Source: Apostichopus japonicus (taxonomy: Eukaryota > Echinodermata > Holothuroidea > Aspidochirotida > Stichopodidae). From it: 64,000 bases of DNA. Position numbers and translations under genes: made by a program. This document shows positions 8,354 to 57,657 of this stretch, piece by piece. The notes beneath the pieces were generated by a model. It searched no databases. It was not told the origin of the DNA and worked only from the letters and a program-made list of their open reading frames with translations. The stretch is taken from contig NC_092577.1 in the NCBI RefSeq assembly GCF_037975245.1, positions 19,032,898-19,096,897 of the forward strand, given 5' to 3'. The first letter of the stretch is position 1; each line of letters starts with the position of its first letter.

Positions 8354-8542
8354 ATCGCTTCTCGGCCTTTTGGCTAAGATCATGTGTAGTATCTGTTCCC
8401 TTAGGGAATGGTGATACACACCTGACGATGATCACACAGTCACAGTCCCGATGCAAGGGGACTGGGGCTGAGAGCGGATCAGTCGTTTGGTAGTTTGGTT
8501 TTCGTGCCCAGGTTCTTTCCTGGGTGACTTTTTCTTAAAAAG
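8354..8542 (+). mobile_element. SINE with U2 snRNA-derived head, copy 1
   Basis: The first 45 bases match the universal 5' end of U2 snRNA (ATCGCTTCTCGGCCTTTTGG..., including the GTAGTA branch-point pairing segment), with one mismatch at position 30 (A to T). The rest is unrelated to U2: no Sm site and none of the U2 3' stem-loops. The body contains two potential hairpins (CAGTCCC/GGGACTG and CCCAGG-TTCTTT-CCTGGG) and ends TTCTTAAAAAG. A 13-14-bp target-site duplication flanks it, so it moved by LINE-type retrotransposition. Length is 189 bp, identical to copy 2, with three substitutions between them. SINEs with snRNA heads are a known but rare class; whether this family is described I cannot tell. 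Confidence 0.92.
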
Positions 8543-11241: not shown

Positions 11242-11595
11242 TTAAGTCAACATGCATTTCATGGTACGGTTGAACCGTTCTATCATCCCATCTGCCTGAG
11301 GATGGAATGGCGTCGTACGAGTCTTGCGAATACTCAGCTCCTTACAGGGACACTGGAAAAGTCGCGACTCAAAATCCCGACCCTGATCAGTCATGATCTC
11401 TCGGGGGGGGGTACCAAATTGGCAAATAAACTCCTCCACCAAGGTGTCCGAAACGACTTCTGCGGTATGATTTGGTAAAGCGTATGCCTCAGTCCATTTA
11501 CTAAAATAGTCTCCCACAACCATGATGAATCGGTTACCCCGATGTGTTACTGGAAATGGCCCCGCTATGTCTATGGCGATTCTCTCTGATGGCAA
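11242..11595 (-). pseudogene. Integrase catalytic core (Gypsy pol)
   Basis: The 117-residue frame shows the rve core: IDIAGPFPVT with the first catalytic Asp, then MTDQGRDFES with the second, and HPQADGMIERFNRTMK, where the Glu of the DDE triad is present. Its role is strand transfer of element cDNA into the host genome. All three acidic residues appear intact, although the flanking frames are broken. Confidence 0.88.
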
Positions 11596-11610
11596 CCCAA
11601 TTTGGTATCG

Positions 11611-15837: not shown

Positions 15838-16026
15838 ATCGCTTCTCGGCCTTTTGGCTAAGATCATGTGTAGTATCTGTTCTTTTCGGGAATGGTGATA
15901 CACACCTGACGATGATCACACAGTCACAGTCCCGATGCAAGGGGACTGGGGCTGAGAGCGGATCAGTCGTTTGGTAGTTTGGTTTTCGTGCCCAGGTTCT
16001 TTCCTGGGTGACTTTTTCTTAAAAAG
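15838..16026 (+). mobile_element. SINE with U2 snRNA-derived head, copy 2
   Basis: 189 bp, the same length as copy 1 and differing at only three positions, all within bases 46-51 right after the U2-derived head. It is flanked by a short direct repeat TATATC (15832-15837 and 16027-16032; 7 bp if the ambiguous A is counted). Head, hairpins and the TTCTTAAAAAG end are as in copy 1. The near-identity indicates recent activity. Confidence 0.92.
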
Positions 16027-18702: not shown

Positions 18703-19920
18703 TTAAGGCATCTTCACCGTACCAGGATACCAAAGGAGAGGAACAGTAAAACGATTATTAACTGTAACCTTCCCAGGGAGGCACAGCCACCTCCGACTGA
18801 ATGTGTCGAGCTTTGCCTCCACCTGATCAGCCTTCTCGGCCCATGTGGTGGCCTCCGGGGCACCATAACCTAGCCAGATGCCATTTACCCTCATAATGAC
18901 ATCTGACCAAGTAGCATCGAATGGGAGGGATTGGCCGCGCCAACCTCCTTAACGCAACCTTTTGGTCTTGGACTCCAGTCTGGCACCAGTAGCTTCTTGG
19001 AAGGTGGCCAAAACCTTCGATAAAGAATTGAAGGAGGCGAGGTCCTACACAATACAAGTGACGTCATCGGCATATTGCACGCTTGTAACTCTAGCACCAC
19101 CCGGTACACTGAAGGGGTTCAAAACCCAAGCATCTGTCCAGCCAGGTACTGAGCGTTTCGCTGAAGAGAACATACAACAACGGGGAGATGAGACAACCCT
19201 GACGGACTCCCCTTCGAACCGGGAAGGGACCAGAAGTAAATCCGTTAACAGTGACCATGCTCGAGACGTCCTTATATAGTAACGAGACCCAACGAATAAA
19301 CACTGAGTTCAACCCGAAGGACTCTAAGGTTCTGAACAGAAAGTCGTGATCTACCATGTCAAAGGCCTTCTCCTGGTCCAAGGAGACCAGTGCACATGGC
19401 AAATCACGAACTTTAACAAACTCGATCAAGTCTATCATCGACCAGAAGTTTTGTTGAATACACTTGCCTCGCACAGCTGAAGTCTGGAGAGGACCTACAA
19501 TGTCCGGCATCACATGCGCTAAGCGATTTCCTAATGCTTTGGCCAGGATTTTGTAGTCCACAGTTGACAGCGTTATTGGACGCCTATTCGGGTCCAAAGG
19601 GTCTCACGACTTTGGGAGGATATATATAATATTTCCAACCCGCTGTGTTTGGCCTTATGTTATTCAACTGGAAAGAGGTAGTGAACACGTATCAAGTCCC
19701 CAGAGAGGGCCTCCCAGAAGGTCCTATAGAACTCAGCAGGTAGGCCATCGGGACCGGGGGACTTTCCCTTCTTCATCGCTGCTACCGCTGTCCAGAGCTC
19801 ACCAACGGAAAGATTCGAACCCAAGCTATCGATTTTACTATGAGGGGGGGGGGGGGCTTGTCTATACCAGACAACAAGTCTTCCTGGAGATCCTCGCTAA
19901 CAGCAGCCCTGGATCAAAGA
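18703..19920 (-). mobile_element. 5'- and 3'-truncated Tx1/L1-like LINE fragment (reverse transcriptase)
   Basis: The longest frame (19091-19597, 168 residues) reads NRRPITLSTVDYKILAKALG, later LVSLDQEKAFDMVDH and RRGVRQGC, typical of RT domains 2-5 of the Tx1 group. YADD is preserved at 19063-19074 but is soon followed by a stop. The thumb region at 18703-18894 (VNGIWLGYGAPE) matches the equivalent part of the full-length LINE at 22.5-27.4 kb with many changes, so it is a related, older family. A poly-C tract (minus strand) near 19845 breaks the upstream part. Confidence 0.88.
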
Positions 19921-22680: not shown

Positions 22681-25600
22681 TTAAAAAACTACAAAAGGAC
22701 GACCAGCACGCAGCGAAACAAAACACCCTTCCCCAGCACACCACCGTCCAAAAAAGGCAGCCCTAGATAAACGGCGAAAATCGCCTTCAACCTGAAGGCG
22801 AATGTCAGACTTCACCGCCTCCAGGACTGCCTGCCAACTGGCAAATTTCCCCCTAAAAACAACATCACATCTATTCCTCCAAATAAGTTTTTTTTTACAA
22901 CAGAACAAACATAAATAATACGCTGCAACACAGCAACGGAACAAACTGGAGGATGTAATCCATACAAGACAAAACCCTGTCCTACCGACCAGGAACGGTC
23001 TCCCGTTAAACGGTCGGTCCAGGACTGAAACCACTCCCACAAGTTCAAAACAAAGGGGCAATGCCAAAAAACATGGGCAGTACTCTCTAAGCTGTCACAG
23101 CCGGTCCTCGGGCACAGTCCATCACCCAATCGCCAGTGATACCTTTTCAGATTGGTCACCAAGGCACCGTGTGCAATTCTCCATGCAAGGTCACGGAGCC
23201 TGCAACCATTCAGCCTTGAATGCACCGAACGCCATACTTCGACAGGATGACGTCCCTGTACAAAAATTGCACCCAAGGCCCTATCCCGCAACGAACTGTG
23301 AACGAGGGCCGGCCGTGACAGGTCAACAGGGGGCAACTCAATCAGAGCGGAGCAAATGACACGCACCACCCTGTTTGGAGTACTACTATGCGGTTCTCTG
23401 TTGCTAAACAGCGCCGGGACCCATCGACGCAGGTGCAAACCTCCCCAAAAACGCACAAAATATGAACAAGGCAACCCTGGGTCAGTTACCGCTACAAACA
23501 ACTGCTTAAATAACAAACAAGTTAACTTACTTCCCAGATGAACCACCCCTAACCCACCCTTCTCCAGTTTTTGGTACATTACCGCCCTTTTGACAAGCTC
23601 TGTACCACCCGACCAAATAAATGAAAATATCGCTCTCTCCAACCGCACTAGGACGCGACGCGGAATTGGATACACCGCGCCCGGGTACCACAAGATGGGC
23701 GAAACAAAACGATTAACTACGGTGACTTTCCCTAGGATCGAAAGCCAGCGGGTGCCAAAGGTTTCGAGCCTGCTCTCAAATACCTCAGCCCTCTCGCTCC
23801 AGGTGACATCACCAGGTGCATCGTAGCCGAACCATATACCATTAATTTTGATATTCTGATCCGACCACGACGCACCGAATGGTAAGTCTCTGTATCTCCA
23901 GCTACCAAGACGAAGGCCCTTTGTCTTTTCTGGATTCAACTTCGCCCCGGTAGCTCTCTCAAAAATAGATAAATCCTGCGAGAGTGCGCGAAAGGAGCCC
24001 AGACTCGAAACAACACATGTCACGTCATCTGCATATTGAGCGCATTTCACTTTGGCACCCCCTGGCACAACGAATGGAACAAGTCTGGAGTCCCTTTCCA
24101 AAAGACGAGAGAGGGACTCGCTAAACAAAACAAAGTAATGGAGACAGAGGGCACCCCTGGCGCACCCCCCTCTCTACGTTAAAAACCTCCGAACAAAACC
24201 CATTTACGATAACAGAACTGAAACTTTCCTGATACAAAACAGAAATCCATTTACGAAAATTTGGGTGCAACTGAAACGTCTCCAATACATTCATTAAAAA
24301 ACCGCGATCCACCATGTCAAAGGCCTTCTGCTGGTCCAGAGACACCAATGCACATGGCAGATCACGCTCAATAACAAAGTCGGTCAAGTCGCGCATCAAC
24401 CACAAGTTCTCCTGGATGCAATGACCCTTCACTGCACAAGTCTGGAGATCACCCACAAGATGCGGCATAGCCAGTGCAAGGCGGTTGCACAAAGCCTTAG
24501 CCAGCAACTTGTAGTCCACATTTAACAAGGTGATCGGACGCTTGTTACGGGGATCCAAGGGGTCCCCAGACTTGGGCAGCAAAGTAATCATGCCCAGACG
24601 TTGACTTTGGTTTAACAGTCCGTTTTGGAAGGCGTCCTCGAAGACGGCTCTGATGTCGGGTCCTATTATTGCCCAGAAGGTTCGGTAGAACTCCCTCGGA
24701 AGCCCGTCCGAACCCGGGGACTTGCCATTCTTCATCTTCGAAAGCGCCTTCCAAAGCTCAACAGTGGTTATTTCGCCCCCCAAAATATCATTGACATCGT
24801 GGGGAACGGTTTTTGAGATTCCCCTCAATAAATCAGCCTGTGCCGACAAGTCGACATTGCCACGCGTAAACAAACTCGAATAGTACTCTTTATATACGCG
24901 GACAATGCCGTGAGGGTCACTAACCACGGTCCCATCAGTAGCGCGTACAGACGGGACGCGTCTGTCACCTGCCGATGAACTAACGGACTGGTAAAACCTC
25001 AGTGAAGGGCGCTCCTCGGCTTCCACCGCTTCGACACGGGCCCTGACGCGGGCACCGTGGTACTTTTCATCGAGATAAGTCTGCAAAGCGATGACTGCCG
25101 AAGGGTCGCCAAACTTCACCTCCGCGCACAGCTTGGAGAATTTTTCTCTTCGACGCCGTGCGCGGGTCACGCAATACTGAATTGCGTAGCGTTTGATGCG
25201 CAACTTGACCTCATCCCACCATTGGGATGTAGAAGCAAAGGCCGGCTTCAATGTTTGCCATCCTTTGTACCTGGTCTCGAAACCCTGGCGGAACTCTGCC
25301 TCGCCAAGAATGCGACAGTTAAGCTTCCATAGGCCCCGCCCGATGGGGAAAATGGAAGGCAAAACAAAACGTGCTACTACTGTGTCATGGTCAGAGAGCG
25401 GACAGCTGAGCGTCTCGCAACCCGAAAATTTCAAACTTACGGGCGCATACACTCGATCTATCCTGGAGGCATCTTCTCCGTTAGGCCTCACCCACGTATA
25501 CACCGTACTACACGGGTGCATATGCCTCCAGACATCGGCTAAAAGGTGTGCCGAAGTGAATCTGTCCAATTCTGTGATCCCAGCGTCGGGACTTGCAGAC

Positions 25601-26072
25601 ACAGAAGTTCCGAGTCTGTCAAGACCCGAGTCTGGGACACAGTTAAAGTCTCCGACCATGACACACGGCGCACTACCAGGAACAAAGGAAGGCAGCGTGT
25701 TAAAAAAATCTCGTCTAGCAAAAGCCGATTGGGAGCATACACATTGCAAACGGCGATGTTACCCTGTGGATACTTGAATAGAATGCAAACCAATCGGCCC
25801 TCGTGATCCGTCTCCACCCTAGTGGCACAACCCGCCTGACGAGCTGACAGAAGGATGACAGTGCCACAGGATGAAGACGAACCAAACGAAGCATGCAGCT
25901 CACCACCCCACTCATAAGCCCATAGAGGGACATCTTCTTCCAAAATATGTGTTTCTTGCAGGCAAACGCAGTCGACCTCCATTGATTTACAATATTGGAA
26001 AATGCGACTGCGCTTGCGATGATCCCTCATGCCATTCACGTTCAAAGTGGCAATTGAAAGTGTATGGGCCAT
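22681..26072 (-). pseudogene. LINE ORF2: AP endonuclease, reverse transcriptase and C-terminal zinc finger; three frameshifts
   Basis: The real start is probably the ATG at 26072 (MAHTLSIATLNVNGMRDHRK), 20 bases after the ORF1 stop. Endonuclease motifs are LNVNGM, CLQETH and VGDFNCVPD. RT motifs are NGKSPGSDGLPREFYRTFW, RPITLLNVDYK, SLDQQKAFDMVD, RRGVRQGCPLSP-like and YADDV (24024-24035, intact). The C-terminal finger is C-x4-C...H-x4-C near ESTAHVFWHC. The frame shifts at about 25703 (A-run on plus), about 24130 and about 22893 (T-run). Everything else is open, so the copy is either recently dead or affected by homopolymer miscalls. The protein would nick DNA and copy element RNA at the nick. 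Confidence 0.88.
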
Positions 26073-26092
26073 GAGAGGGCAGTGGGGCAAAA

Positions 26093-27181
26093 CTACGAAG
26101 ACGACGATTCCGTAAGCTTCAAGCGCGCCCTTGACGACATATCGTCGTCCGAGTCGTCACTTGAAGCCGACCTTTTAAGAGAGGGTTCCCCCATTTCGTC
26201 GTACCAGCTCGTCCCAGTGGCACGTTTCGGCTCGCTGATCACCGATTCACCGGAGTCGCTGTCAGACAGAACCTCCGGAGAATCGATGACCACCGATTCT
26301 CCGTCAGACAAAGCCTCCGGATCTGGCGATACCGGCGGCGGACTGGGGACGGAACTGGACGAGTTGATGGGGGAAGCTGGTGGAGACTTTCTCGGTGCGG
26401 GCACGGGGTTGGGGTCTGCAACGACGGGGGAGGGTGAACCAGGTGCAGGGGAGGGTAAAATCCCACCAGATTCCCCCTCCTCTCGTGAAGTAGTAGGTGC
26501 GTCGGAACTTGACTTACCCCCACTCTTAGTCCTAGAGACATAACAGGAGGGACAAGCTCGAAAGACATGTCCCTCCTTCCCACATAGTGAGCACACAACC
26601 TCGTTTGGGCAAGCGGTGCTATCATGCCCAAGACGAAGGCAGCGCCCACATTTCTTGTTTGGGCAGCCCTTGGCTTCGTGCCCGGTCTCCCCACACCTGA
26701 AGCAGGTACGGGGCTGACCGGGATACCGCACGTGGGCTTTATGCCCTGCTATAAACAGGAAGGAGGGAATGTCCTGTTTCAGGTCGATCCGAACCTGTCG
26801 GTGCCCGTTCAACACCCCAGGGGCTTGTGCATAGGAGCACATTTTGGCAGCCTTGACAGCCCCGAACCGACCCAAAACCGTTACAAGTTCCTGCCGCACC
26901 TCTAGTCCTACGTGGATGACAGTTACCCATACGGATCGCTCGTATGGAGTAACTGTCATCCCCTCGACGTTACTCAGCAACGTGACACCTTTCTGACGGG
27001 CCACGTCACTGGTAAAACGTAAATCGTACGTATTACGACCCTGGAGAGCTTGCAAAGCATCAACCTCTCCAGGCACAACAACACCCTTGCTCTTCAAAAT
27101 ACTAAAAACTTGCACCGGTGGAACAGCTTGTTCACCGGTGAACGACAACTTAACTATCCGAGAATCACGGCGCGATGCCAT
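26093..27181 (-). CDS. LINE ORF1 protein with three CCHC zinc knuckles
   Basis: The likely start is the ATG at 27181 (MASRRDSRIVKLSFTGEQ). The frame is open further upstream, but that part encodes hydrophobic low-quality sequence and lies in the 5' UTR. The resulting 362-residue protein has an RRM-like N-terminal half, then three C-x2-C-x4-H-x4-C knuckles: CFRCGETGHEAKGC, CGRCLRLGHDSTAC and CSLCGKEGHVFRAC. A Ser/Pro/Asp-rich tail follows. Such proteins bind element RNA and act as chaperones during target-primed reverse transcription. The frame is intact. Confidence 0.85.
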   Translation of the reverse strand: MASRRDSRIVKLSFTGEQAVPPVQVFSILKSKGVVVPGEVDALQALQGRNTYDLRFTSDVARQKGVTLLSNVEGMTVTPYERSVWVTVIHVGLEVRQELVTVLGRFGAVKAAKMCSYAQAPGVLNGHRQVRIDLKQDIPSFLFIAGHKAHVRYPGQPRTCFRCGETGHEAKGCPNKKCGRCLRLGHDSTACPNEVVCSLCGKEGHVFRACPSCYVSRTKSGGKSSSDAPTTSREEGESGGILPSPAPGSPSPVVADPNPVPAPRKSPPASPINSSSSVPSPPPVSPDPEALSDGESVVIDSPEVLSDSDSGESVISEPKRATGTSWYDEMGEPSLKRSASSDDSDDDMSSRARLKLTESSSS

Positions 27182-27400
27182 GATACCGAAGGTGGCTAGG
27201 CCACAGGGGAGTAACACAAAACAAACAAAAGACAGGATAGTGAAACAACAAACGATATACGAACTGAGGAAAACACACGAACACAAGCTATCACACCCGC
27301 CTGGCGGGAAGTATAGCACAGCACAGTACAATAACAGCTGTAACAGATGAAGAGCGAGAGCGAAAACACGTCCGCACTCCACGAAAGCCAACTGCAAGCC

Positions 27401-28867
27401 TTTGTACAAATGCATATATAGTTCTATCCCATAGAACAGGAATATAATAAATAAGGCTACAAAAATATTGTCTTGTGGAGTTAGGTCAAGTGAAAAGTCT
27501 AAAAATATTACATTTTTGCACTTATCGCTCAAAAATGTGCTATTTTGAGTGATGAATTGCTCCTAAACCATTGGTACATGGTACTTCATTCTTTCACAGG
27601 TTATTATGTCTAGTACAAGCAATACATAATAATGATTTACAATGCTTTCCTATAATGTATTTGCAAGTTGTGCAACTCTAAATTTTCTATTTCATGCTGC
27701 GATTAAGCATCAGGAAGTGTCTCCCGATTTTCCTCTGTTGCTTAGGCCTAGACAGATTTATGGTTTTGAATATTTTTTCCACGGTATATCTTTAAAAGGA
27801 ATTACCAGTAGTGTGACAGTCTTTAGAAAAGAAGCCAAAATCGACTTAATTTGAGGTTTTTCCGCAGCCTAACGCTAAGTAGGGCCTACGCCTACCTTAG
27901 TATAGTAATACAATTAATTCGTAGTGTTACCTATACCACAAAACTGTACGCCCTGGCCGCCTAGCATATATGTCAGGGACTAGGCGAGATTCTTCCCATT
28001 TATTTTTTGGCGAGTTACCAATGTTAATGATCGAGCGACTTTCGTTTTCATAACGCTAGGCCTACACAATCGAGTAACACTAACAGTAACACTATGGAGT
28101 ATGGGCTAATTCAATTTCTCTATTTCTCAACTGTATTGTCTGGCCCTGAGTGGTCTGGCCCTGGCCCAACCAGGCCCAATTCAGGTTAGTGAAACCCAAT
28201 TGGGCCCCAACTGGGATGTTTCTGCAATAACAGAGGTCGAAGTTTCCTGTTCACTGACGGACATTATGCCGAACACAATTAGGCTAGTTTACAACATGAG
28301 CCCAGGCTTATTTGAACACACTATCGACCGCAGTAAAAATATGCAATACATGGACAAGATTAAAATAATTTATCGGTACACTCTTATCTCAAAATAGGGG
28401 GTGTTGGGATATAAATTGGCTCACCCTTAAACTAAGAACTGGTACTGCAAACGATGATTGAAGTCCCTGGGCTAGTAGTAGTAGCAGGTAGGCCTACATC
28501 TCGTAATAACTGCAGATTCGTTCGCCGTTAACATCGGGTAGAGCCTAAGCTTAGATTGCGAAAATGTTCATTTCTGATGTTTAGAGCTGTAGTATATATA
28601 CTACGCACTAGTTGCGCGAATCATCAACGCGAACTGCAAGCTGGGTTGATTCCATGGGTTCCGGCATCGGTTGTACAAACTTAGGCTAGTGTAGGCTGAC
28701 TTCCTTCGTAGAGTGTGTCCGTTAGGCTATATCGTGAACATACGATGTGTTCCTCGTTAGGACTTCGGGCCAAAAGATCTCCTGTTCGTTACTGAGCGTA
28801 ACGAACGAAAGTTGTTAAAAGTTACGTTACCGTTTTGTTCCTGCAGAAAGCAATCGATCTCCACCAT
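27401..28867. other. Non-coding stretch, host-like
   Basis: No supported exon. Several TAGGCCTA-like motifs and CpG-containing patches occur (27860-28090, 28500-28830). The frames at 27642 and 28200 (+) lack domains and splice support. Confidence 0.4.
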
Positions 28868-42747: not shown

Positions 42748-43792
42748 TTTTGGTAAGGGTAATTTCAACATTGTTTATATTCAGTGTTTGCTCCGACAAT
42801 GTTGTGAAATTATTCTTAGTGTAGATTACAGTGCCATATGGGGAGTTTGAGAGAGGAGCATGAGATGGGATGTTTTTGAATAGTGTAAATCCTTCAATGT
42901 ACAGCTTATCATTTCTTATTGCTTCTGATAAATGGCATTCAGTGAAAAGTAGAATATCAGCAGATGTGATTGTGGTGTCAAGTACAATGTCAGAAATGTG
43001 TTTTCGTAATGATCTTGTATTTTGATGGATGATTGTGGTGTTGCTGTCAATTGGTTGGCTGTTGATCTTCAATAATCTTGTAGAACGAAGGTCTTTTACT
43101 TCCTTGACAACCTTTGGATCAACATTTATATTTGCAGGGTTAAGATGAAGTACGTATAAGCCATTCAGGGAAGTGACTCTACTTAATGCAACATAGTGGA
43201 TGTGACATTGTGATCTAGCACCTGACATATCAACAACTTTCTCTTTCATTGTGTCTCCTTGACATCTATGGACTGTCTTTGCAGTTGCTGGTCTAATGGG
43301 AAATTGTTTTCTCATAACTTGTGCATTTTTGTTACGGCCAATTCTAAATTGTCGACCAACTTGAGATATTGGTGTCCATGATGGAGCAATCTTAGAATTA
43401 TACAGTTCTTTTCTAGCATGCCGACAGGCTTTACCTACAGAAATGTCATCAAATTGTATCCAGATAATGTGAATAATATGTACATTCTCTACATACTTGA
43501 TAATACCAGTGGCACCATTAATCATTCCATCTTCAAGTGAAACATTGAGGCAGAGGTCAACTCTTTGATCAATACCCAAGGATAGTTCAGTGAATAATCC
43601 CATTGTCTTTTGAGGGTTGTTCGGTATGCAAGTCAGTATTTTTTGTTTCACTGTGTTTGGAATATCACCTACAACAACATCTTTTGATCTAACTTTCAAT
43701 TTCAGAGTGTTGAGTTTGGAGAAAACTTGATCATTGTGTGCATTAACTTTCATGTTTGTCTGATAAAGATGTATTTGATGGAACACTGTCAA
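42710..43792 (-). pseudogene. Helentron helicase C-terminal half and endonuclease N-terminus
   Basis: It contains the late superfamily-1 helicase motifs: FPIRPATAKTVHRCQGDTMK (motif V region) and HYVALSRVTSLNGLYVL (motif VI). After a short linker the endonuclease starts: IIHQNTRSLRKHISDI, then ADILLFTECHLSEA with the catalytic Glu, and YGTVIYTKNN. Helicase and endonuclease are fused in one frame here. The ORF overlaps the upstream helicase ORF in another frame, so a frameshift separates them near 43750-43790. The 360-residue frame is otherwise intact. Confidence 0.88.
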
Positions 43793-44654
43793 CTGTAAAC
43801 TGTGTAGTGTTCAGCAGCTTTAAATCATCTTCTGTTTGATTGCCTTCTCTTAGTCGGTTTAAAAGTTTAGCAAAGCTCTGGTCATCCTTTTGTCTCATGA
43901 TTTCAGTCAGTTCAAAGGCCCTAAAATGGTCTTTCCATAAATTAGATGCTAGTGGACCATAATCATGAATTAGATCATTAAATATCCATCCATCAAACAC
44001 TGGCTTGAGTTGAAAGAGATCACCAACAGCAATAATGCTTACTCCTCCAAATGTTTTCTTACTACCCATTATTTGCTGGAGTCGTTTATCTATGTATGTA
44101 AGCATTCCATTACCAACGATAGATATCTCATCAATAAATATGATTTTCAAATTTCGGAACTTCACTCGAAGTGAGTTCAGCTTGTCTGATGTTAATGCTT
44201 TATAATGGAATCCTTGACTAGCTGGAATGAGTAAAGCACTATGAATGATACTGCCTTTAATGCCATAAGCTGCTTTGCCTGTTGGTGCCATTAGAAGAAT
44301 GTGAGTATCATCTGGATCACTTCCAGGCTGGCTAGAATAGTATTTCAAAAGTGCATTATGTAGAGCTTTTAATACTTGAGATTTTCCTACACCAGCTCCG
44401 CCAGTTAGAAATGTGTACAGTGGTTCTTGCTTTGTTTTACACCAATGCAGTACATAGTAGAAAAAGTCTTTCTGCTTTTTATTGAGGCTGCGTACTAGAG
44501 TTCTATATTCTGAATCAGGCATCATACATCTTAGGGTCTTCATTTTCAATATCATCAATTGCCTGTTCAATGATATCTCCACTGTGGTTATATTCTGCTT
44601 CCTTGTCTTTAATCTCGGATTGAACCTGAAGGTATCGTTCTTGGTACGTATCAC
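43743..44654 (-). pseudogene. Helentron PIF1-type helicase, N-terminal half
   Basis: Superfamily-1 motifs are clear: Walker A FLTGGAGVGKSQVLKAL, motif Ia LLMAPTGKAAYGI, Walker B IIFIDEISIVGNGML, motif III SIIAVGDLFQLKPV and motif IV-like FELTEIMRQKDD. It unwinds DNA during rolling-circle transposition. The real region probably begins at MMPDSEYRTLVRSL near 44520, in the middle of this frame. All catalytic residues are present and the frame is open through motif IV. Confidence 0.92.
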
Positions 44655-44847
44655 ATGACTCTATGATCTTGTTTTCAGATCTCCAAGGAAAAAACAACAT
44701 AAGCTGTTCTCTGTAGTATTTTTCAGGGTCAGTTTCCTTGTTAAACCGAACATATCTGATGATCTTGGCTTTGTTTCTTTTCTTAAATTTCAATGCACCA
44801 ACTGTGTAGTATTTGACCTCATCAGTACTTTGCATAATTTCAGTCAT
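44515..44847 (-). pseudogene. Helentron Rep-helicase linker
   Basis: A 110-residue charged segment (VKYYTVGALKFKKRNKAKII, then DPEKYYREQLMLFFPWRSEN) of the type found between Rep and helicase in Helitron proteins. It overlaps the start of the helicase ORF in another frame, showing a frameshift at about 44515-44650. Upstream is an Asp/Asn-rich low-complexity stretch (44850-44950). Confidence 0.75.
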
Positions 44848-44952
44848 AGGTCATCAGCATTATCATCTGAATCATAGTCATCGTTACCACTATCTTTGTT
44901 GAGAAGTTCAGTCATATGAGCATCATCATTATCATCATTGTTAGTACAATCG

Positions 44953-45687
44953 TTAACTCTTGTTGTCACTACTAATATCATACCAAGCTGCAAAGTCTGC
45001 TAAGCAATAATGATGAAGTGCTTGAGGTCGGACAGCATACTTCCTGATAAGTCCCATACATTCAATATCTGTTGAGTTATCTGGCAACTGATGAATATAT
45101 TTCAATGGTTTGATCAGGATTCTTCGATTTTCTGGTGGCGAGGTGTTCACGAACAGAAATTGCCCGGAGGCTTTCCTCAGTGACATTTGCAACACCAAAT
45201 ACACTGCTTCTTGAGCACTCATTTCAACATGATTTAGGAACTTGTTTCCAATGTGTCGAACTTGTTGTTTAATGTCCATGTTTCCTTCTCTTGCTTCTGT
45301 TGTTGCACGCTGCATAAGGTTACTCATACCTCTTTGTCCTTTGCTAATGTAAGATACAATATACATGGCACATGCATATGGGTCCAATATGTATTGGATG
45401 TCCATATTAGCTTTCCAAGTTTCCAGCAAAACTGAATTGTAACCATTAATTCTGACCTCTCATGGTGATCTTTTGAGAAGGATTTTGTCTGATGTTATGG
45501 ATGAACGAATAGCAATAATGTAGTCCTTTTCTGTGGTTTCCAACTTTGCCAGCATATCTTCAAATGTGTCAGTAATGTCTTCAGCAAGTTTAAAATCATC
45601 CAAGTAAGCTTTTATGCACTTGTACAATTCTGCAGTTTTGTCATTGCCTTTATCTTCCAATGGTGTTAGAATCATGGTTCTAGGCAT
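44953..45687 (-). pseudogene. Helentron Rep, C-terminal part with the two catalytic tyrosines
   Basis: One frame is interrupted by a single TGA (about 45460); both sides are in phase. The part after the TGA reads NMDIQYILDPYACAMYIVSY then ISKGQRGMS. MYIVSYISK is the Y-x3-Y-x2-K motif of Helitron Rep proteins, whose tyrosines cut and join DNA strands. The conserved sentence on both sides (KRSP before, EVRIN after the stop) suggests a point mutation of one codon. Downstream, RKYAVRPQALHHYCLADFAA ends the domain. Confidence 0.9.
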
Positions 45688-46280
45688 TGGTGGGATAGGA
45701 AACCCAAAGCGGCAAACACCTTGTCTCTTTTTCCTGCATGGCTGTGAGATTGCAAGTTAACAGTTTGGTTGACTGTGTCCGGAGGTTTGTTACATGTGAC
45801 ATATTGATCAATAAAGGACACAATATCCGTAGCTGCTGCATTTCCATATAAAGGTGCATCTTTGACCCAAACGAGCATGTGAATGTGTGGGGAACCTCTC
45901 TGTTGGAACTCTACTCTGTAGAAATGATCAATGATCTCACCAATTGGATGATATGACCTATCCATGAAATCATTCAGGAACCTGCGAAACATGTAATCAA
46001 AGTGTCGTGCACATGTAACAGGGTCACTCTTGATAAGATTAGACTTGTCATTCCAATTCATGTTTAGTAGTTCTTCATCTGTGAAATGTCTGTTATTAAC
46101 TGTTCTTCCAAGGATTTTGAGTAGGTGAAGCCACCTTGTTTCAGCAGCAGAGAATGATAGAAACCATGTTGGGATTCCAAGTTGTCGAATCATCGCAAAC
46201 AATTCTCTCTTGGACTTTTCCCAATAGGGAGGGGATCCTCGTAACGTTCGGAATACTCTAAATCCTTCATCTAGAGTCAA
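45672..46280 (-). pseudogene. Helentron Helitron_like_N and Rep HUH motif
   Basis: The frame reads RTLRGSPPYWEKSKRELFAM, then LGIPTWFLSFSAAETRWLHL, the signature of the Helitron_like_N domain. It ends with EFQQRGSPHIHMLVWVKDAP, whose His-Ile-His is the HUH metal-binding motif. HUH plus the tyrosine pair further on form the nickase that starts rolling-circle replication. A frameshift near 45690-45735 leads to the next part. Confidence 0.92.
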
Positions 46281-46352
46281 GATTTGATTGACAGTTCTTT
46301 CCCTGTGTTTTCTTCTTTCGCATGCTAAGTGTAACTTTCTGCTGTATTTGGT

Positions 46353-47375
46353 TTATTTGTAGCTTCTTGGTTTTGTAGAATATGTTAGGGACAGATTTGG
46401 CAAATCGTCTATCTTTGTGACGCAATTCCATTTACATATTGTGCTATAGTGTACTTTATCTTTAGTATCACTTCTCGGCTGTCCACAAAACAATGTTGGG
46501 AAAGCAAGTATTTCTGAATTAGTGTCTTGAAACAAGCCCATAGGTCTATTTCCCTCACCTGGTGCTACACAATATGCAAGTTGGTTTTGTTCATCAAATT
46601 CTGGTGTGAGCATAGTATCTAGTGTACCTGTAGGTTGCATGTCATCATTTTGAGGTTCTGTCCAATCATCATCTGAATCTGGATCAATTTCATCTTTAGA
46701 TTGAATTGAGGGAGTTGGTTGTGCTGGAAAATCCATGTTCTCTTTTGTGACAGATTGTTCTTGTGCAGGTTCTACGAATTCCTGCCAATCATCATCCATC
46801 TGCTGCAATGATTCATTCCATGTCTTATGAATTGTAACTCCTTCATCTCTATATAATTGACTGTTTGCAACAAGCCAATTTGCAGCATCAATTACTTTAT
46901 TGGGCCTGACATTTTCATTTTGAACAGAGTGCTTATAGGAAAGTTTCCTTTTAAATTTGACAGGAATGGTCATGCTCTCGTCTATTCTGCATGGTAATGT
47001 CCTTATTGTACTTGATACATTACAAGCAACATTTACCACATTTCCTTTAACATTCAGTTGTCGTCCTTTAGGAAGTTCTCGTATTTGCTTGAATGGTATT
47101 CGAAGGGCAACTAATCTCTCTTCCAGAGAATGTAGTTGCAACTCATTTGGGACAATGGTAAGTCTGATATTATTGTCTAAGCTTAATGGAGGTATCTTGT
47201 CAGATTGAATATATTCCTTACAAGTACCACATATCCAAACTTTGTTGTCAATAATGGAAGAATTGTGTAAAGCAATGCATTCAGTGGAGTTTCTAAGTGT
47301 GTGTCCGAAGTTAGTCACACTTTCTTTGTACCATAACTGTTCACAACAACAGCACACATTCTGGACCAACTGCAA
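46353..47375 (-). pseudogene. Helentron zinc-ribbon-like (DUF6570-like) region
   Basis: A 340-residue frame opens with two Cys pairs (CCCCEQLW and CGTCKEY) and IPPLSLDNNIRLTIVPNELQ, LEERLVALRIPFKQIRELPK and GNVVNVACNVSST, matching the pattern of the DUF6570 family that precedes Rep in many Helitrons. Its end carries YCVAPGEGNRPMGLFQDTNS and EILAFPTLFCGQPR, the usual entrance to Helitron_like_N. Frameshifts separate it from both neighbours. Confidence 0.85.
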
Positions 47376-48901
47376 TTGACTTCCAAAATATTTTTTGCAA
47401 TTGTTGGATTGATGATGTATTCCTGGTAAATATTTTCTTTTGATACATATTGTGGGTCTGTTCTAGCTTCTGCCATTCGTGCTTTGTTTTTTTCTTTCTC
47501 TTGTATAGTGTATATTTTGATGCCACGGATAGTTTTCATTCGTTTTACATTTTGTTCTTTCTCATATTGAGAGTACTCGTCTTTTTGTCTTGTCTTTTTC
47601 ATTCGTTTGATGTTTTGTTTCTTTTCAGTTTGACAATATTCTGTATTCTGTCTTGTCAGTTTCATTCGTTTGATGTTTTGTTCCATTTCTGCTTGATAAT
47701 ATTCTTTTTTCTTTCTTGTCAGCTTCATTCGTTTGCTGTTTTGTATCTTTTCTGTTTGACAATATTCTTCCTTTTGTCTTGTCAGTTTCATTCGTTTCAT
47801 GTTTTGTTTGTTTTCTGCTTGAGAATAGTTTCTATTTTGTGTTATCTCTTTCATCCTTTTACTGTTTTCATACTTTTCACATTGACTGTATGTGTTATGC
47901 TTTCTCTTGGATTTAATCCTTTTTGCATTCTTGGCTCTTTCTTCTTGTTTATATGACTGCTTATTTGTTCTTAACTTTTGCATACGTTTGACACTACCGG
48001 AGTTAGCATGGTTGTTGTCGTGATGCAATTCATCTTTCTGTACATACTTTATTTTTTCATCTTTAAGCTTCTTCCACAAATTTTGCCTTTGTTGTTCCTC
48101 TTGTATCCGTTCTATAGATGTTTTAGGAGTTGAAGATTCAGGGTTATGTTTTACAAGGCAGAGATCAGTATTCTCAAAACCATATACAACATCATAATGA
48201 TTACTATTTGTGTTTTCTAGATAAATTGCACGCTTCTTTCTATTCACATTGTCTGTGAAATTGCCAGAAGCTGGATATCGCAACCATTTCCATTGACTAC
48301 CATATACAGCATATGTATATATGTCAGTTTGTAAAAGTTTGGCAGCAGCCATTATTTCAACTTCAGTAGACCATACTCCATCATTAGAAATATGAGTAGT
48401 CTGAATGTAGTCTTTCACAGAACACCAGGAAGGCGGAAGGTGGCATTCCTCAATAGCTTGGACTACTACATGTCTTAAAATATGATAATTAGCTTCTGAA
48501 TTTGTTATTAAGAATGACAAACTTCTAAAGAAGCAATTGCCATCACCTGTTATTTTCCAAACATTACATGGTTTTGAAGTATTAACATACAAAATCGGAC
48601 TGTTGATTTGCGGCCAATTTAAATTACAACTGATATGGATATTTTGTGTATATTGTTTCAACAGGTCAATCTTTGAAATACTCCATGCATTATTAACTGG
48701 AAAGAAAGCAAATGCATGAGTCTGCACTGAGTGCAAATTAATATCAGTTAGTGCATCAGTTGAATCTTGGACTGACACATCATCCATAATTTGGGTAGAG
48801 TTTGTGCCTGATTGACATTCTCGGTTAGTTCTGCTTTGTTGCATTTGTTGTTGATTTGCTTTTTTTCTTTGCTGGTAACTCCTTTTCTTTGTTTGTGGCA
48901 T
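47315..48901 (-). CDS. Helentron OTU cysteine protease with 21-residue repeats
   Basis: The 528-residue frame has an ATG at 48901 and is intact. Residues about 115-240 are an OTU domain: WKITGDGNCFFRSLSF holds the catalytic Asp120 and Cys123, and NSNHYDVVYG the catalytic His235. OTU proteins remove ubiquitin; a role in Helentrons is not established. Residues about 320-480 are tandem repeats in which KRMK recurs every 21 residues (positions 348, 369, 390, 411, 432, 453, with a variant at 327), each followed by TRQ-like and Tyr/Gln/Glu segments. The helical, charged repeats may form a coiled coil or bind nucleic acid. At its 3' end it runs into the zinc region in another frame, so a frameshift at about 47390 may have separated one larger protein. 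Confidence 0.9.
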   Translation of the reverse strand: MPQTKKRSYQQRKKANQQQMQQSRTNRECQSGTNSTQIMDDVSVQDSTDALTDINLHSVQTHAFAFFPVNNAWSISKIDLLKQYTQNIHISCNLNWPQINSPILYVNTSKPCNVWKITGDGNCFFRSLSFLITNSEANYHILRHVVVQAIEECHLPPSWCSVKDYIQTTHISNDGVWSTEVEIMAAAKLLQTDIYTYAVYGSQWKWLRYPASGNFTDNVNRKKRAIYLENTNSNHYDVVYGFENTDLCLVKHNPESSTPKTSIERIQEEQQRQNLWKKLKDEKIKYVQKDELHHDNNHANSGSVKRMQKLRTNKQSYKQEERAKNAKRIKSKRKHNTYSQCEKYENSKRMKEITQNRNYSQAENKQNMKRMKLTRQKEEYCQTEKIQNSKRMKLTRKKKEYYQAEMEQNIKRMKLTRQNTEYCQTEKKQNIKRMKKTRQKDEYSQYEKEQNVKRMKTIRGIKIYTIQEKEKNKARMAEARTDPQYVSKENIYQEYIINPTIAKNILEVNCSWSRMCAVVVNSYGTKKV

Positions 48902-48959
48902 GACTGATGTTTCCTGTACCCTTACTATATAAGCCTACTTTTATATATTTTGTCGAATA

Positions 48960-51134: not shown

Positions 51135-53021
51135 CTGAAAAGAAAAGAAGGAAGCAATTTTGAATATTTGCCATGAATATATTAGTTTATGGCAATTCTC
51201 TAGCCCTATTGTTATATTTACCATAGATTACAAATAAGTGATGAAATGAAGTATTACCAGACTTGTTGTTAAACAGCGATGTAATCATGTAATTTTTTAT
51301 GGCAATACATTGTTTAATGGTGTTAAATCAATTCTGAAAATGTTGAAATGCAACTGAAATTGTGGATAACAGATTTATCGTACAAAGTTTTGAAAGAAAT
51401 CGTAAATTACTTGGCAAAGTATTCCCTAGTAGCCTTACTTGTGTTCAATTGTTAGACAGCATAGAGGGCTTGGTTGATGTGATCAGAAGAACTGTCAATA
51501 TCTCTTGTCACTTCCACATATTTGGGAAGTATTTTCACAATAAACACCCATGCTCTATTTTATTTCTAAAGCACATTGATGGTTATTAGAAGTTCAAATT
51601 ATTGTGGATGTCACATTTTGTGATTTGGTTGTTTTTAGAAACTGAAACAAACCCTCTATACCCCTTCCAAGAGGCATGCACTAATTGTGTCAGTTTACAT
51701 TTGCAGAAACCAGGTAGCAAATAAATTTAAAAAAGTGTAATCCATAATGACAGTATTGAACCATACTTTGTAGACCTGCCAAAAATATATACAGCCTACA
51801 TGATATATGACAATGCATGCGCAAGAAAATTGGGTCTTTTGAAGGCCCAGAATAATTAATAATTAGGAATGAATTAGTACAGAAGGGGACGGAATATAAC
51901 AGAAGGGGATGGCAACCTTCAGCCATCCTCATGTTGTCCCCTTAACTTTAGGAAGCTGGATTTAAGACCTAAAATAAGCAGTAGTTACAGTAGAAGCGAT
52001 GTTGTAGCTGTGCTCAGTGTTGTGTATAAGGCTATACTGTGTTACATTGATTTCAATAAGGTAAGAGTGGTACTGGAGTACCTTACCATTCTTAGACCTG
52101 TGAGGGTTAATTACAACTAGCAGGTGTATTTGTATGTAATAATCGTTGCATCAATAACCATATAAAAACATGCCAGTAAATTCTGTTGATAGCTGTAGAC
52201 TATGCTGAGGGGAAGCCATATGGGGAATTCAGCTGTAAATTAATTGTTAGGGACCTATTGGGGGTGGGAGAGGGGTGGGGATGAGCCCCGAGGGTAGGAT
52301 GAACAGGGGACTGGGAGACTGCGCCCTGAGTATGTATGCTAAGAGAGGCTCTGACATCTGATGCTGGCGCCGCCAATGGTGGGAAGGAATGGTAAGCATG
52401 AAACCAAATATTTAAAGCAGTGGGATGGGGCACATGTAAAAATTATCATCTTGTGATTTCTTCATTGATTTACAGCTCATTTTGTCAGTGCAGGTTTAGC
52501 TTGCTGGATTATTTTCCCTGTTCCAATTTTTTTTGGCTGAATGTCAAGATGGACTGGCAATATGTTTATTTAAAGTCTTTGGTAGACTCGGGCAGAATTC
52601 TAAGCCTGACCTCCCAGCTGGTTGACAGCCTTAAAAAAAGTGGAGCTTCCCAGAGATCTTTTCTCTTTTTTTTCTTTTCCCTAATCAAAATCCCTAAGGT
52701 CAAATCTGTGTCTTGAAACTTTTGATATTTATTGGGGCAATTAGCAGCAATATAATTTGAAGCAAATACACAGTCCAGAGGGTCACTAAATAAAGTTGAT
52801 TGATTACACAAGCCACTGTAGGTGTAGTAACACATTTACTGTCTGGTATCTATCCACTGTCAGTTGATTCAGTTCATTGGAAAAATTATCATACATATCA
52901 TTTATCATTAAATACCATGTTTAGTTTATACCCTAGTCTCCAGACAATAGAAGCTGCCAGGGCAAAATTCCTTTGGAGATGGTAGAGGGTCAATCATTCA
53001 AGCCTACAGGCAATGATAAGC
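51135..53021. other. Non-coding stretch, nothing convincing
   Basis: Frames at 51362 (+) and 52420 (+) have no domain or splice support. A short GC-rich patch at 52255-52330 looks like a decayed repeat. Confidence 0.35.
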
Positions 53022-53355
53022 TTAAAGTGGCCATGACACGAAAATTTCAAAGTCCTATATTTTTGGGATCCATCAAAGAATGTTCTCTAGAACATGTATC
53101 AACCATTCTGCCAGTTTAAAACTTGATTTTTCAAGTCGAAAATTGAGAATGAATTTACCCTTTTCGGCGTTTGAAACTTTGTTTACTCGAAAATTTTCCG
53201 ATTCGCATGACGTCATGTGACGTCACGTTTTGAACACATTTACGATCCTCCGAATATACCATTCACGTACACAGTAGACAAGTACACATACTACTAGTAG
53301 TTACTAAACAAAACACCGATCACAAGTGCGATATCAAATCAAAATTTCATGTGAA

Positions 53356-53630
53356 ATGGCGGATCCAGAACCAATTGCGGCAACCGAAGTTCAAAGTGAT
53401 AATGGTTCTTCACTAGGCAGTGAAATTGGGCTATAATTAGAGTGCCCTTTCTCATATTCGAAGCAGAGAGTGAAGGCGATGATCATTCCAATATTGAACC
53501 GAACGTTGAGGGTGGAGCGGAGGTGTTAGAACCGTATCAGTTCGATCCTGTTAAACGAGCCGAAATTGAAGCTCCACAACATATCGAAGAAGAAATCCGT
53601 TCGAAACCATTGCAAGGAACATACAACGTG
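53356..53630 (+). pseudogene. P2X7-ballast-like gene, first exon
   Basis: ATG context GAAATGGCGG; the peptide starts MADPEPIAATEVQSDNGSSL and meets a stop after 26 codons. After a shift it continues EAESEGDDHSNIEPNVEGGA, then EPYQFDPVKRAEIEAP, and ends at a donor (AACGTG|GTAAGA). An acidic Ser-rich leader followed by a PYQF(D/E)P phrase is what I know from N-termini of proteins with the Cys-rich ballast domain found at the P2X7 C-terminus. The frameshift marks decay. Confidence 0.6.
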
Positions 53631-54056
53631 GTAAGAATTTATTAACGAAGCATTTAAAAACAAAATCCAGTCCATTTTGTGCATGTGTTGTTGGAATTCG
53701 CGGAACACCCTAAACCATATTGTGCGTTGTGTTACGGTAACTTACAACCCATATGTAGAGTGTGTAGTACTAGTTAGGGTTGTTGCATACTGAAAGTTTG
53801 GCTCGGGGATGTAAGTTGCATTATGCAGCCATGCTAGGTAGGCATATGTGTTATTTCATACTCATTATTACTTGGCTAGTACTTTGGCCTGGAGTTTTGC
53901 AAATCAATTTTCTGAAACAAAAGAATGTTTCATGATACACGGAAGGTGTAAAATCACAACAAATGTAACCATAACTGTACATTGTATGCCTGCTTGTTAT
54001 TGTGGACATCATGGCCAACATTAATACATTTTGAACTTTCATAAATTTTTTCCCAG

Positions 54057-54351
54057 GCAGTACAGATACATAGCCTACGGTCAACAGGTTCAATGATACT
54101 TGGGGTTCCTAGCAAGACACGTCAGGGTTGTGCTACCATCATGTGCAGTCCAAAGGATCAGAAGTGATTTTCCAGCCAATGGTCATTACACTGGATTCAA
54201 GTTGCCAGGAGAAAACTCATTGTATAGGAAGCCTTGGTTGAGAAATTCCTCCAGGAACACCTTTTCTAAACTACAATTGTGTTGGATTATCAACCGTCAG
54301 GGTTCCCTCAGTGTTGATATATTGAAATTCAAGACTTTTAATTCAGGATGA
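54057..54351 (+). pseudogene. P2X7-ballast-like gene, last exon
   Basis: The acceptor is TTTTTTCCCAG. The frame reads QYRYIAYGQQVQ, a TGA (54094-54096), then YLGFLARHVRVVLPSCAVQR and IRSDFPANGHYTGFKLPGE. This matches the end of the ballast domain, including the R-H-x-R-V-x-L-P-S-C phrase and the YxGF(x)LP terminus. The TGA sits where a Trp is usual. The middle exon with the zinc-binding Cys cluster was not found between 53631 and 54056, so the domain core is missing here. Confidence 0.7.
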
Positions 54352-55618
54352 AAAGGTTATTTTCCAGACCCAACATCAACAATGAAAGAAAAGGCATGTT
54401 TTGAAGCATTTGGACACAAGTATTGGCGTGACCATGATGTCATATAATATGTGCATATGGGAACGGGCATTGACCTTTTTAGGGGCATTTACCTCCCAGA
54501 TGTTTGATTCGTACCTTTAATCTGGAAGCCAAAATATCCATATCACCAATGATATTTGACAGAAAAGTCATAATAAAGACCAATGGAGGCAGCAGAACTC
54601 TTGAATGTTTAGACTTTGTTTCTTCAGCAGCAGTTGGTTTGTTTTGTAGTCTTTCTTCAAAAACTCAGCAGTACACCCTGTTAATGGTCTTCGATTGTTT
54701 TAATGCGTGTGATGCTGTGTTTCACATTGCCCATCAGTGTTGTACGTGTCGTCGTGCTTGTGTAACATTTTTGCATGTGAGTTACTTCGTGCAGTGTTTC
54801 TTGGTTTAAATAACCCTTTATTGTATTTGATTCTGGATTATTCTAATTAATTTGTCACAACAATGATTGATAGCGATGGACATGCAACTGCTTTGTAGGC
54901 TTAAAGCAAAAAAAATCATGTAAGTTGTTTTCTTTTAACCTCCTTTGATGTCACAAATCACATTAGTGTAATTTAAGAATGATAATGTTTATGGAAAGTA
55001 CAGTTCTACTTTTATGTCATATAATACAATGATTGTTCTTAATGTTAGTTCAGATTGTCCAGAATGACTGTCTAGAACTGATATTGAATAAATTTTGTTC
55101 AATGATTTAACACTTGAACTATGTTGTGTGAATTTTTGGCTCTGTGACTTTAAAATAAATCGCTTTGAGATTTAATTAAACACCCTTTGGAATAAAATCT
55201 TTTTACCTACCTATTTTGACCCATCCCCATTACCCCCACTCCCTCCACAACATAAAAAATGGTTTTCCTGGAATAGGAATAAGAAATTATTGCTATAACT
55301 AACTGATCCAGCATATTCCAGAAATAAATTGGGGCACTGAGATTTGTTCACAAGAAGATGTAACCCATTGCTTCTGAAGCTAACCTCATAGCTTATTAGT
55401 ATACAATAGAGCAATGAAGGGGGTGTTAATTTAGATGATCACAGTAAAATCTCTTCGTCTATTGCGACTTCAGTGTAGTAACGCTAATACCATAGTACTA
55501 CTAGTGCTCGGCGCGCTACCTCCTAAGGATCGCCACTTGCCCCATTGGAGGTTTCCTGTTCCCCGATCTGGTCTTCAGAGTAGTTTTTTGCGGATTACTT
55601 GACAGAAGAATGACTCTT

Positions 55619-55864
55619 TTATGTGGAACCGTTAAAGTCCATTTGTTTTATTTCATAACAAAAAGGAGGGATCGTAGTATGCTTCCGTGAAGTGTTCGCT
55701 TCATTCGGAGCTGCATACTGGCTAGGCCCAGTGAAATCGGCGCTGGTGTTGTGCACTAACTTGGTCATAATCGCCGTGTTTTTTTCGTCCTTCAGCCATG
55801 GATGAAGGCTAATTGCATGGGTAATGATATTTATGCAGCCCCCAACAACACAACGGACCGGCAT
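55619..55864 (-). pseudogene. THAP domain, broken first exon
   Basis: The frame starts MPVRCVVGGC, the THAP beginning (M-P-x-x-C-x4-C), continues ISLHPWLKDEKNTAIMTKLV, and has ADFTGPSQY, as in THAP domains. Past this point the frame is shifted: in the next frame lies SEHFTEAYYDPSFLL, the C-terminal THAP signature, with a TGA exactly where the third zinc-binding Cys should be. Both a frameshift and a point mutation therefore destroy the finger. THAP domains bind DNA in P-element and Kolobok transposases and in host regulators. Confidence 0.75.
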
Positions 55865-56220
55865 TTCTCTCGGATAGTTTACAACAGTTGTAAAACAAAC
55901 TTGAAATTTCTAACGATATAGCGTAATACAGTGGTTGTTCTCTCAGTGTAAATGTGCGTGTATATGGAACGGTATGATCGTCGCGTATCCGATACATGCC
56001 TGGGCTTTGCACGTGTGTTCCTAACATGACGTCATCATTGTCTTGTTGTGAAATCGCATTCTCAGATATCTATTTTCGGATGCGAATATTAAAACGTTAA
56101 TTACTAATTAGTCCTTGAGGTTTTGAAGGTGTTGAGGATAGTTTTGAACATAGATTTTCTCATAGATTCAGAGGAAGTTACTCTCGATGAGTTGGATTTT
56201 TCGTGTCATGGCCTCTTTAA

Positions 56221-57657
56221 TTAACATTCCCTATTATATTATATGACTGACTAAAAATGAGTTAGTTACAGTGTATTAAGAAGTAGAGTAAGTATTCTGA
56301 TTTCTCCAAGGATGCAATTAACACCAGGTTTCCTTCATCAGTTCATTGAATTTCAGCAAGAAACATTGAATTTGATTTGTATTCATAATCAAGTGTATGA
56401 TTTGAGTCACCTAATTTTCATACAATTTAGTTGAATAATTTCTTAGAGGGGTACATGTGTCAACATTTTTTTACAGTGATCGTGTGTAATTTGGTGGAAT
56501 CAGTTAATTCCAATAATTATATTGTTGGAATTGTAAACCTGATTCTACAATTTTTATGAGTACCAGATCCGAGTGGGGGGTTGAAAGGGCAAGGGAAAAA
56601 ATATGAGGGGAGAAATAACCCACTCCCCCTATAACGCCACCACTGTATCTCACTATGTCCATGGATAAAGAAGTTAAGTCATGTCCTCGGTACCCTGTGT
56701 GTGTGAAACGTCTAGGTGCTATGTCAGAGGAGCTATATATATTGCCTATATATATATATTATTAAGTGGAAAATAGAAGGGATATAAGTTTTTATTGGAG
56801 CTTGGTATTACGTCATGTTTACCTTGTCTGTGGTTAAGTATCAAATTCATAATGTCACCATAAAATTCATATATTTACTATAGGTGATCTGTCAAAAATT
56901 GATACAAACATTCAAATAACCAAAGAAAGTACAGTAATACCAGTCAAAAGTCACCCAGATGCAGGTCAACTATTGGATTGCAATAGCTAACTCCCAACAT
57001 TAATGTCCAACCATGCATGCATTTTATCAGTCATCACTGCTGATAATAATCTGAAGTGGAGACTTCTGCTTGACCTCTCAAGTACAAAAGTTAGCAAATT
57101 GTCCAAAAGTCAAGTTAAATATTTGGATAAAGCATGAGGTTTTTCACCAGTAGCAACACCTGCCTAAGTAAACCAGGAAGGAGTTTTTTTTGGGGGGGGG
57201 GAAGGGGCAACGGGAGACAAAATAGATTTTTGGGAGGTGTATCGTGTATCAAATGGGGACAACTGTTAAATATCTAACCTTTGAAAATACTGCAATTTGA
57301 AACCTGATTAGAGAAATTTTAATGAGTACTAGATCTGAGTGGGATTGGGGGGTGGGTTGAAAAGGGCAGGGGTAAAAAATCTGAGGGGACAAAGGACCTC
57401 TCTTCCTGGAGGCTGATGTGATTTTCTGTGCACGTAATGATTGGTTTACGATTTAATTTGTTATCTAGAACACAACAAAACTTTTCACTGCAAGGTGCCT
57501 TATACACTTATTTTGTTAATACTCTTACTGAACAGACTTTGATTTCACAGTATTCAAGTTATTCACTTTCAGTCTAATATAAAATGATACTGGGACAAAT
57601 GAACTTTAAAATAATATGTCCTAAATAACGTATACCTACTATACACATCTGAGGCAT
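56221..57657. other. Non-coding stretch with two related repeats
   Basis: Blocks near 56560-56640 and 57315-57410 share ATGAGTAC(C/T)AGATC(C/T)GAGTGGG and a following G-rich phrase. A short stretch (56930-57010) resembles the AGGTCA-rich repeat (GTCAAAAGTCACCCAGATGC). No gene is seen. Confidence 0.5.

Follow-up and report, generated by a model that had tools for sequence, protein, structure and literature searches.

The element and its copies in the genome

The 64-kb stretch of Apostichopus japonicus DNA analysed here (the window) holds a transposon of 3,191 bp at positions 53026 to 56216, in which remnants of a ballast gene, KolX, and of a gene with a THAP domain run inward from the two ends (Table 1). 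An earlier note on this DNA had described a 3.2-kb segment with 19-bp inverted ends and TTAA on both sides, and the coordinates it gave for that segment are exact. The two inverted ends are identical at 18 of 19 positions, both start with AG, and each is bordered by a TTAA target-site duplication. When the whole window was scanned, the element's own two ends excepted, no third site came within fewer than 6 mismatches of an element end.

Table 1. Positions in the window of the element's ends, target-site duplications and gene remnants
Feature	Positions	Strand	Basis or remarks
Left target-site duplication, TTAA	53022..53025	.	Sequence
Left terminal inverted repeat, AGT type, AGTGGCCATGACACGAAAA	53026..53044	+	
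KolX/ballast exon 1 remnant, P0001 residues 1-92	53356..53630	+	tblastn; in-frame stop and frame break
Place of missing exon 2 (zinc-coordinating cysteine exon, P0001 residues 93-171)	53631..54056	+	No tblastn match
KolX/ballast last exon remnant, P0001 residues 172-224	54057..54216	+	75% identical over 53 residues; one stop
THAP domain remnant, start of inward-facing (presumed transposase) gene	55659..55864	-	Frame broken; inner limit approximate
Right terminal inverted repeat, AGA type, AGAGGCCATGACACGAAAA	56198..56216	-	
Right target-site duplication, TTAA	56217..56220	.	Sequence

The window also contains a Helitron-like element on the minus strand (positions 43743-48934), with ORFs for an OTU protease, a Helitron N-terminal/Rep domain and a PIF1 helicase; LINE-like ORFs at 24121-27562 (reverse transcriptase, endonuclease and zinc knuckle); a second RT-like fragment, recognised by eye, at 19091-19603; and an integrase-core ORF at 11242-11610. 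Two U2 snRNA matches scored above the Rfam gathering score, at 8354-8437 (84 bases) and 15838-15932 (95 bases), the model having 192 positions.

The genome (671.58 Mb in 35 contigs) was searched with the ends, as the earlier note had proposed, and full-length copies were collected. The pattern of TTAA plus end, with at most 2 mismatches, was found 266 times in forward and 264 times in reverse orientation, a total of 530 matches, compared to 0 and 0 for the control. Facing ends less than 12 kb apart were then paired among the first 100 of these 530 matches. Sixty-six of the 100 ends formed 33 pairs, each made up of one AGT and one AGA end, and the other 34 had no partner at less than 12 kb. Spacing was 3.1 to 3.2 kb for 28 of the pairs, 1.4 kb for one and 3.7 to 4.8 kb for four, with 4.8 kb the longest among the ends covered.

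Copies were sampled as the best 40 of 522 candidates (41 matches at 40 places, L001-L040, the window copy included), which were 97 to 100% identical. Both ends were present in 38 of the 40 fetched copies, and TTAA stood on both sides in 37 of these 38, the exception being L014, which has the flanks TGAA/TTAA. Of the remaining two, L038 had its left end missing in the fetched stretch, and the stretch fetched for L039 stopped before an insert (L052 is its longer version). The termini were AG...CT at 53026/56216 and in all 38 two-ended copies, and the bases to the left of the element were unlike one another in every copy printed. Divergence was low: the 37 full-length copies compared, 3,186 to 3,219 bp long, differed pairwise by 0.09 to 2.2% (mean, 1.31%; 666 pairs), with a median nearest-neighbour difference of 0.53% and a difference of 0.09% between the closest two. 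A form of about 1.4 kb with an internal deletion is represented by L053, L048 and L069; these are 80 to 93% identical in parts, and no ballast last exon was found in them.

Ballast and THAP remnants

The closest protein found to the ballast remnant was a KolX of the sea cucumber Holothuria leucospilota (P0001), which served as the reference for ballast residues. The exon 1 and last exon remnants stand in P0001 order on the plus strand, and tblastn matched exon 1 of the window copy to P0001 residues 1-33 and 32-92 in two different frames. The last-exon piece, with X placed at its stop, matched the Pfam family P2RX7_C (PF20478) with an E value of 1.8e-7, and the raw ORF piece did so at 3.5e-5. 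Two of the three exons of the ballast gene were recovered; 'remnants', the word used in the earlier note, is apt for these and for the THAP sequence as well. The last exon was found in 62 separate elements, where it was 62 to 83% identical to P0001 and contained a stop in 54 of the 62. Its pN/pS, based on small numbers (7 older copies giving 21 non-independent pairs), was approximately 1.16, which gives no sign of constraint, i.e., of a shortened protein being kept. As judged from sequence, the KolX/ballast remnant is a degraded derivative and not a working KolX.

The exon that is missing between these two is the one that in P0001 (residues 93-171) holds the WCTCGHC...CLCC cysteines. None of 40 loci matched it, nor did any in a larger set of 74 loci. 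The latter amount to 68 separate elements (L041 and L042 are the ends of L027, L043 and L044 those of L056, L052 is the same as L039, and L068 lies in L045), a count that excludes L072, which is another gene, and L076, which was fetched later. The exons on both sides were kept in 60 of the 68 elements, and in the window the gap opens with a GT donor at 53631 and closes with an AG acceptor at 54055-54056, both read by eye. When five KolX proteins were searched against the family copies with their cysteine parts alone, the best E value was 0.058, over 18 residues; cysteine-part queries against the control ballast genes L072 and L076 gave values of about 1e-15 to 1e-25. With one tblastn setting, a second protein, P0002, matched from the last exon into the upstream region (residues 118-208, 39%). 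The match shrank to the last exon with composition adjustment, and because the upstream part was removed in this way, we read it as a chance extension. No trace was detected of the zinc-coordinating cysteines that are conserved in the ballast fold, the exon that holds them having no match in all 68 separate elements. In the paralogue L076, the ballast protein is encoded in three exons, the middle one of which is the cysteine exon; the family therefore lacks one exon, and its absence looks like a deletion.

The copies share a further lesion, a stop at residue 27: of 63 separate elements in which this residue is covered, 58 have it. Four of the others (L067, L071, L073 and L075) read E at residue 27. 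These are the most divergent copies, 75 to 86% identical to the window copy over matching stretches, and the cysteine exon is also absent from them. The fifth element without the stop is L053, which has the 1.4-kb deletion form. Stops at other positions are carried by L071 and L075, and in L045 (92 to 94% identical) the residue-27 stop is present, the frame break is absent and the last exon is open. Because the divergent copies that lack the stop also lack the cysteine exon, the exon was probably lost first, followed by the residue-27 stop and then the rest. The likely order of decay read from these copies would be loss of the cysteine exon and later gain of stops, with the ends still mobile.

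The THAP remnant starts at 55864 on the minus strand (MPVRCVVGGC...) and is convergent with the ballast remnant, as the earlier note had indicated; the domain is right but barely readable in the window copy. Its raw ORF had no Pfam match, and with X at the breaks two readings had none and another gave 0.088. Joined across the break, it matched PF05485 with an E value of 1.1e-4 (23.4 bits versus a cutoff of 23.9), which became 3.7e-5 when residues from three other copies were added to the joined reading. Older copies read across their frame breaks matched PF05485 at 1.9e-5 (L053), 2.1e-7 (L048) and 5.3e-5 (L060). Against the PDB, the remnant matched only THAP2 (E = 0.35), and a protein search with the THAP part returned 5 candidates, none of which scored. 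The THAP frame was broken in all translated copies. A DDD/E core with C/DxxH was looked for in six ORF pieces, which gave no Pfam transposase match with a set of profiles that did not include a Kolobok transposase profile.

The ends do occur elsewhere with both ballast and THAP sequences between them, since other copies carry both. No intact copy encoding a THAP transposase together with a complete ballast protein was found among the copies seen, the 68 elements without a cysteine exon included. The idea in the earlier note of a ballast gene travelling inside such an element holds insofar as ballast sequence lies within a mobile element; a copy with a complete ballast protein was not seen. With no intact transposase or complete ballast protein in them, the copies seen cannot themselves spread a working ballast gene.

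Search for an autonomous partner and other ballast genes

When the genome was searched with P0001 and the best 150 of 1,124 candidates were scored, four matches spanned the cysteine and last exons at 51 to 53% identity, one covered residues 129-202 at 58%, and the other 145 covered the last exon alone at 70 to 81%. The cysteine exon alone gave 115 matches among the best 150 of 212 candidates. The best-scoring of these was 51% identical to P0001 over residues 3-74 of the exon used as query, and values above 52% were reached in short pieces only. From a true partner one would expect a similarity to P0001 comparable to that of the family's last exon (62 to 83%). None of the scored candidates reached it, so the partner is either missing from the genome, strongly diverged, not assembled, or one of the candidates that went unscored. 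A close autonomous partner was not found by way of the ends (100 of 530), the KolX protein, the cysteine exon, the longer end pairs or the divergent copies. The four end pairs of 3.7 to 4.8 kb (L049-L052) turned out to be ordinary copies enlarged by inserts; no transposase was seen in these inserts when the ORFs were judged by eye. The divergent copy L067 carries a LINE, its reverse-transcriptase ORF likewise judged by eye. Viral contigs scanned with KolX contained no relative.

The genome holds other, more distant ballast genes, two of which were fetched. The first, L072 (9.5 kb; C1:20302500-20312000), is a diverged ballast gene in which a single ORF covers both the cysteine part and the C-terminal part. 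DNA comparison of this locus with the element yielded nothing of note, and the best TTAA-flanked inverted match within its 9.5 kb, 11 of 16 bases, was unconvincing as a pair of ends. L072 may represent a KolX that was domesticated or has decayed. The second, L076 (3.4 kb), had no end with fewer than 6 mismatches to the element's end. At L076:579, approximately 265 bp upstream of exon 1 of its three-exon ballast gene, stands TTAA-AGGTTTATGGACAGG, and this TTAA-AGG may be a candidate for another Kolobok end.

Among the matches listed, open last exons of ballast genes turn up repeatedly close to contig ends, roughly 170 to 245 kb apart and with equal or similar scores. They lie at C20:0.24-1.38 Mb, C19:31.27-32.39 Mb (end at 32.43 Mb) and C4:29.07-29.52 Mb (end at 29.64 Mb), with others close to where C21, C14 and C11 begin, and look as if they were carried by long subtelomeric repeats. 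One contig-end ballast exon, L075 on C19, belongs to an older, 83%-identical member of the element's family.

Origin of the family and its relation to known Kolobok elements

We consider it very probable that the element belongs to a non-autonomous family within the Kolobok superfamily, for which the Kol0 lineage is the most likely source. The suggestion of the earlier note that THAP and TTAA together point to a Kolobok-like element is supported by the TTAA, the AG...CT termini, the THAP domain and KolX; its putative position inside the superfamily was drawn from KolX rather than from a transposase phylogeny. The ancestral autonomous element would have carried a three-exon KolX running inward from its left end and a THAP-headed transposase gene running inward from its right end; the cysteine exon of KolX would have been deleted and the transposase core lost. 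Since the ends stayed intact, a transposase made elsewhere in the genome could recognise them, excise the element and insert it at TTAA, moving the family in waves. Lineages still being copied would gather lesions, giving rise to nested subfamilies. A more specific version, which we regard as possible but rather unlikely, is that the family is an orphan: its own autonomous element would have died out before it, and a distant Kolobok transposase encoded in the same genome would be moving it to this day or have done so until very recently. This version is suggested by the 0.09% difference between the closest copies together with the lack of a family-grade cysteine-exon ballast gene among the scored candidates.

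The TTAA duplication and a ballast piece without the cysteine exon would also fit an element of the piggyBac type. The AG...CT termini, however, are of the 5'-RR/YY-3' form that separates Kolobok from piggyBac (PMC9587614), a THAP remnant is present, and in the paralogue L076 the cysteine part has an exon to itself, so that its absence looks like a deletion; we hold a piggyBac affiliation to be highly improbable. An intact autonomous Kolobok element, with a ballast gene that works and aids its own spread, would account for the presence of both genes, as convergent fragments, but is scarcely credible when the cysteine exon is undetected in 68 elements, 60 of them with both neighbouring exons, the residue-27 stop occurs in 58 of 63, and the THAP frame is broken in the translated copies. 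The end pairs speak against it as well: the longest of the 33, from 100 of 530 ends, measures 4.8 kb, and the four of 3.7 to 4.8 kb were without a visible transposase. Fragments of host ballast and THAP genes might instead have been captured by an unrelated TTAA element, and other ballast genes do exist in the genome (L072 and L076), but KolX is normal in Kol0 elements and THAP is usual in the Kolobok transposase (PMC9587614, PMC6004289). Finding KolX and THAP between Kolobok-type ends therefore calls for no capture, and this origin seems to us the least probable of all.

As a non-autonomous Kolobok family, the element can be set beside systems already described. No description of it was found in the open-access library of papers searched. 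KolobokP, which Table 1 of PMC9587614 lists for Apostichopus japonicus, shares the superfamily and a sea cucumber host with the element, but has long terminal direct repeats of approximately 450 or 660 bp, whereas the element has none, the longest direct repeat in 52800-56500 being 18 nt. The Xenopus Kolobok elements (XKol) and T2-MITEs (PMC6004289) have in common with it AG termini, TTAA and THAP, and the T2-MITE is a non-autonomous relative there; the end sequence differs, and 'KolX' and 'P2X7' are absent from the main text of that paper. Free ballast proteins across animals were described by Rump et al. 2020 (PMC7016195), in whose main text the string 'transpos' is absent. Kojima and Bao 2022 (PMC9587614) identified the KolX of Kol0-type Kolobok elements as the ballast domain and proposed a fusion between a P2X4-like gene and KolX as the source of P2X7. 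The ballast-Kolobok link and the origin of the P2X7 tail were thus already published in 2022, and the family is, on the sequence features that it shares with the published elements, a new example. It provides a well-sampled echinoderm case of ballast sequence in a TTAA-specific Kolobok-type element, in line with that proposal for the P2X7 tail (PMC9587614), and suggests that some invertebrate gene models named 'P2X purinoceptor 7-like' may be transposon genes or debris. The Kol0 lineage (Kolobok-1_XT type) as described there encodes a DDD/E transposase and KolX; compared to it, the element has broken genes, no KolX cysteine exon and no recognised DDD/E core, and it shares with Kol0 the TTAA duplication, the 5'-RR termini and a KolX with ballast similarity (PMC9587614).
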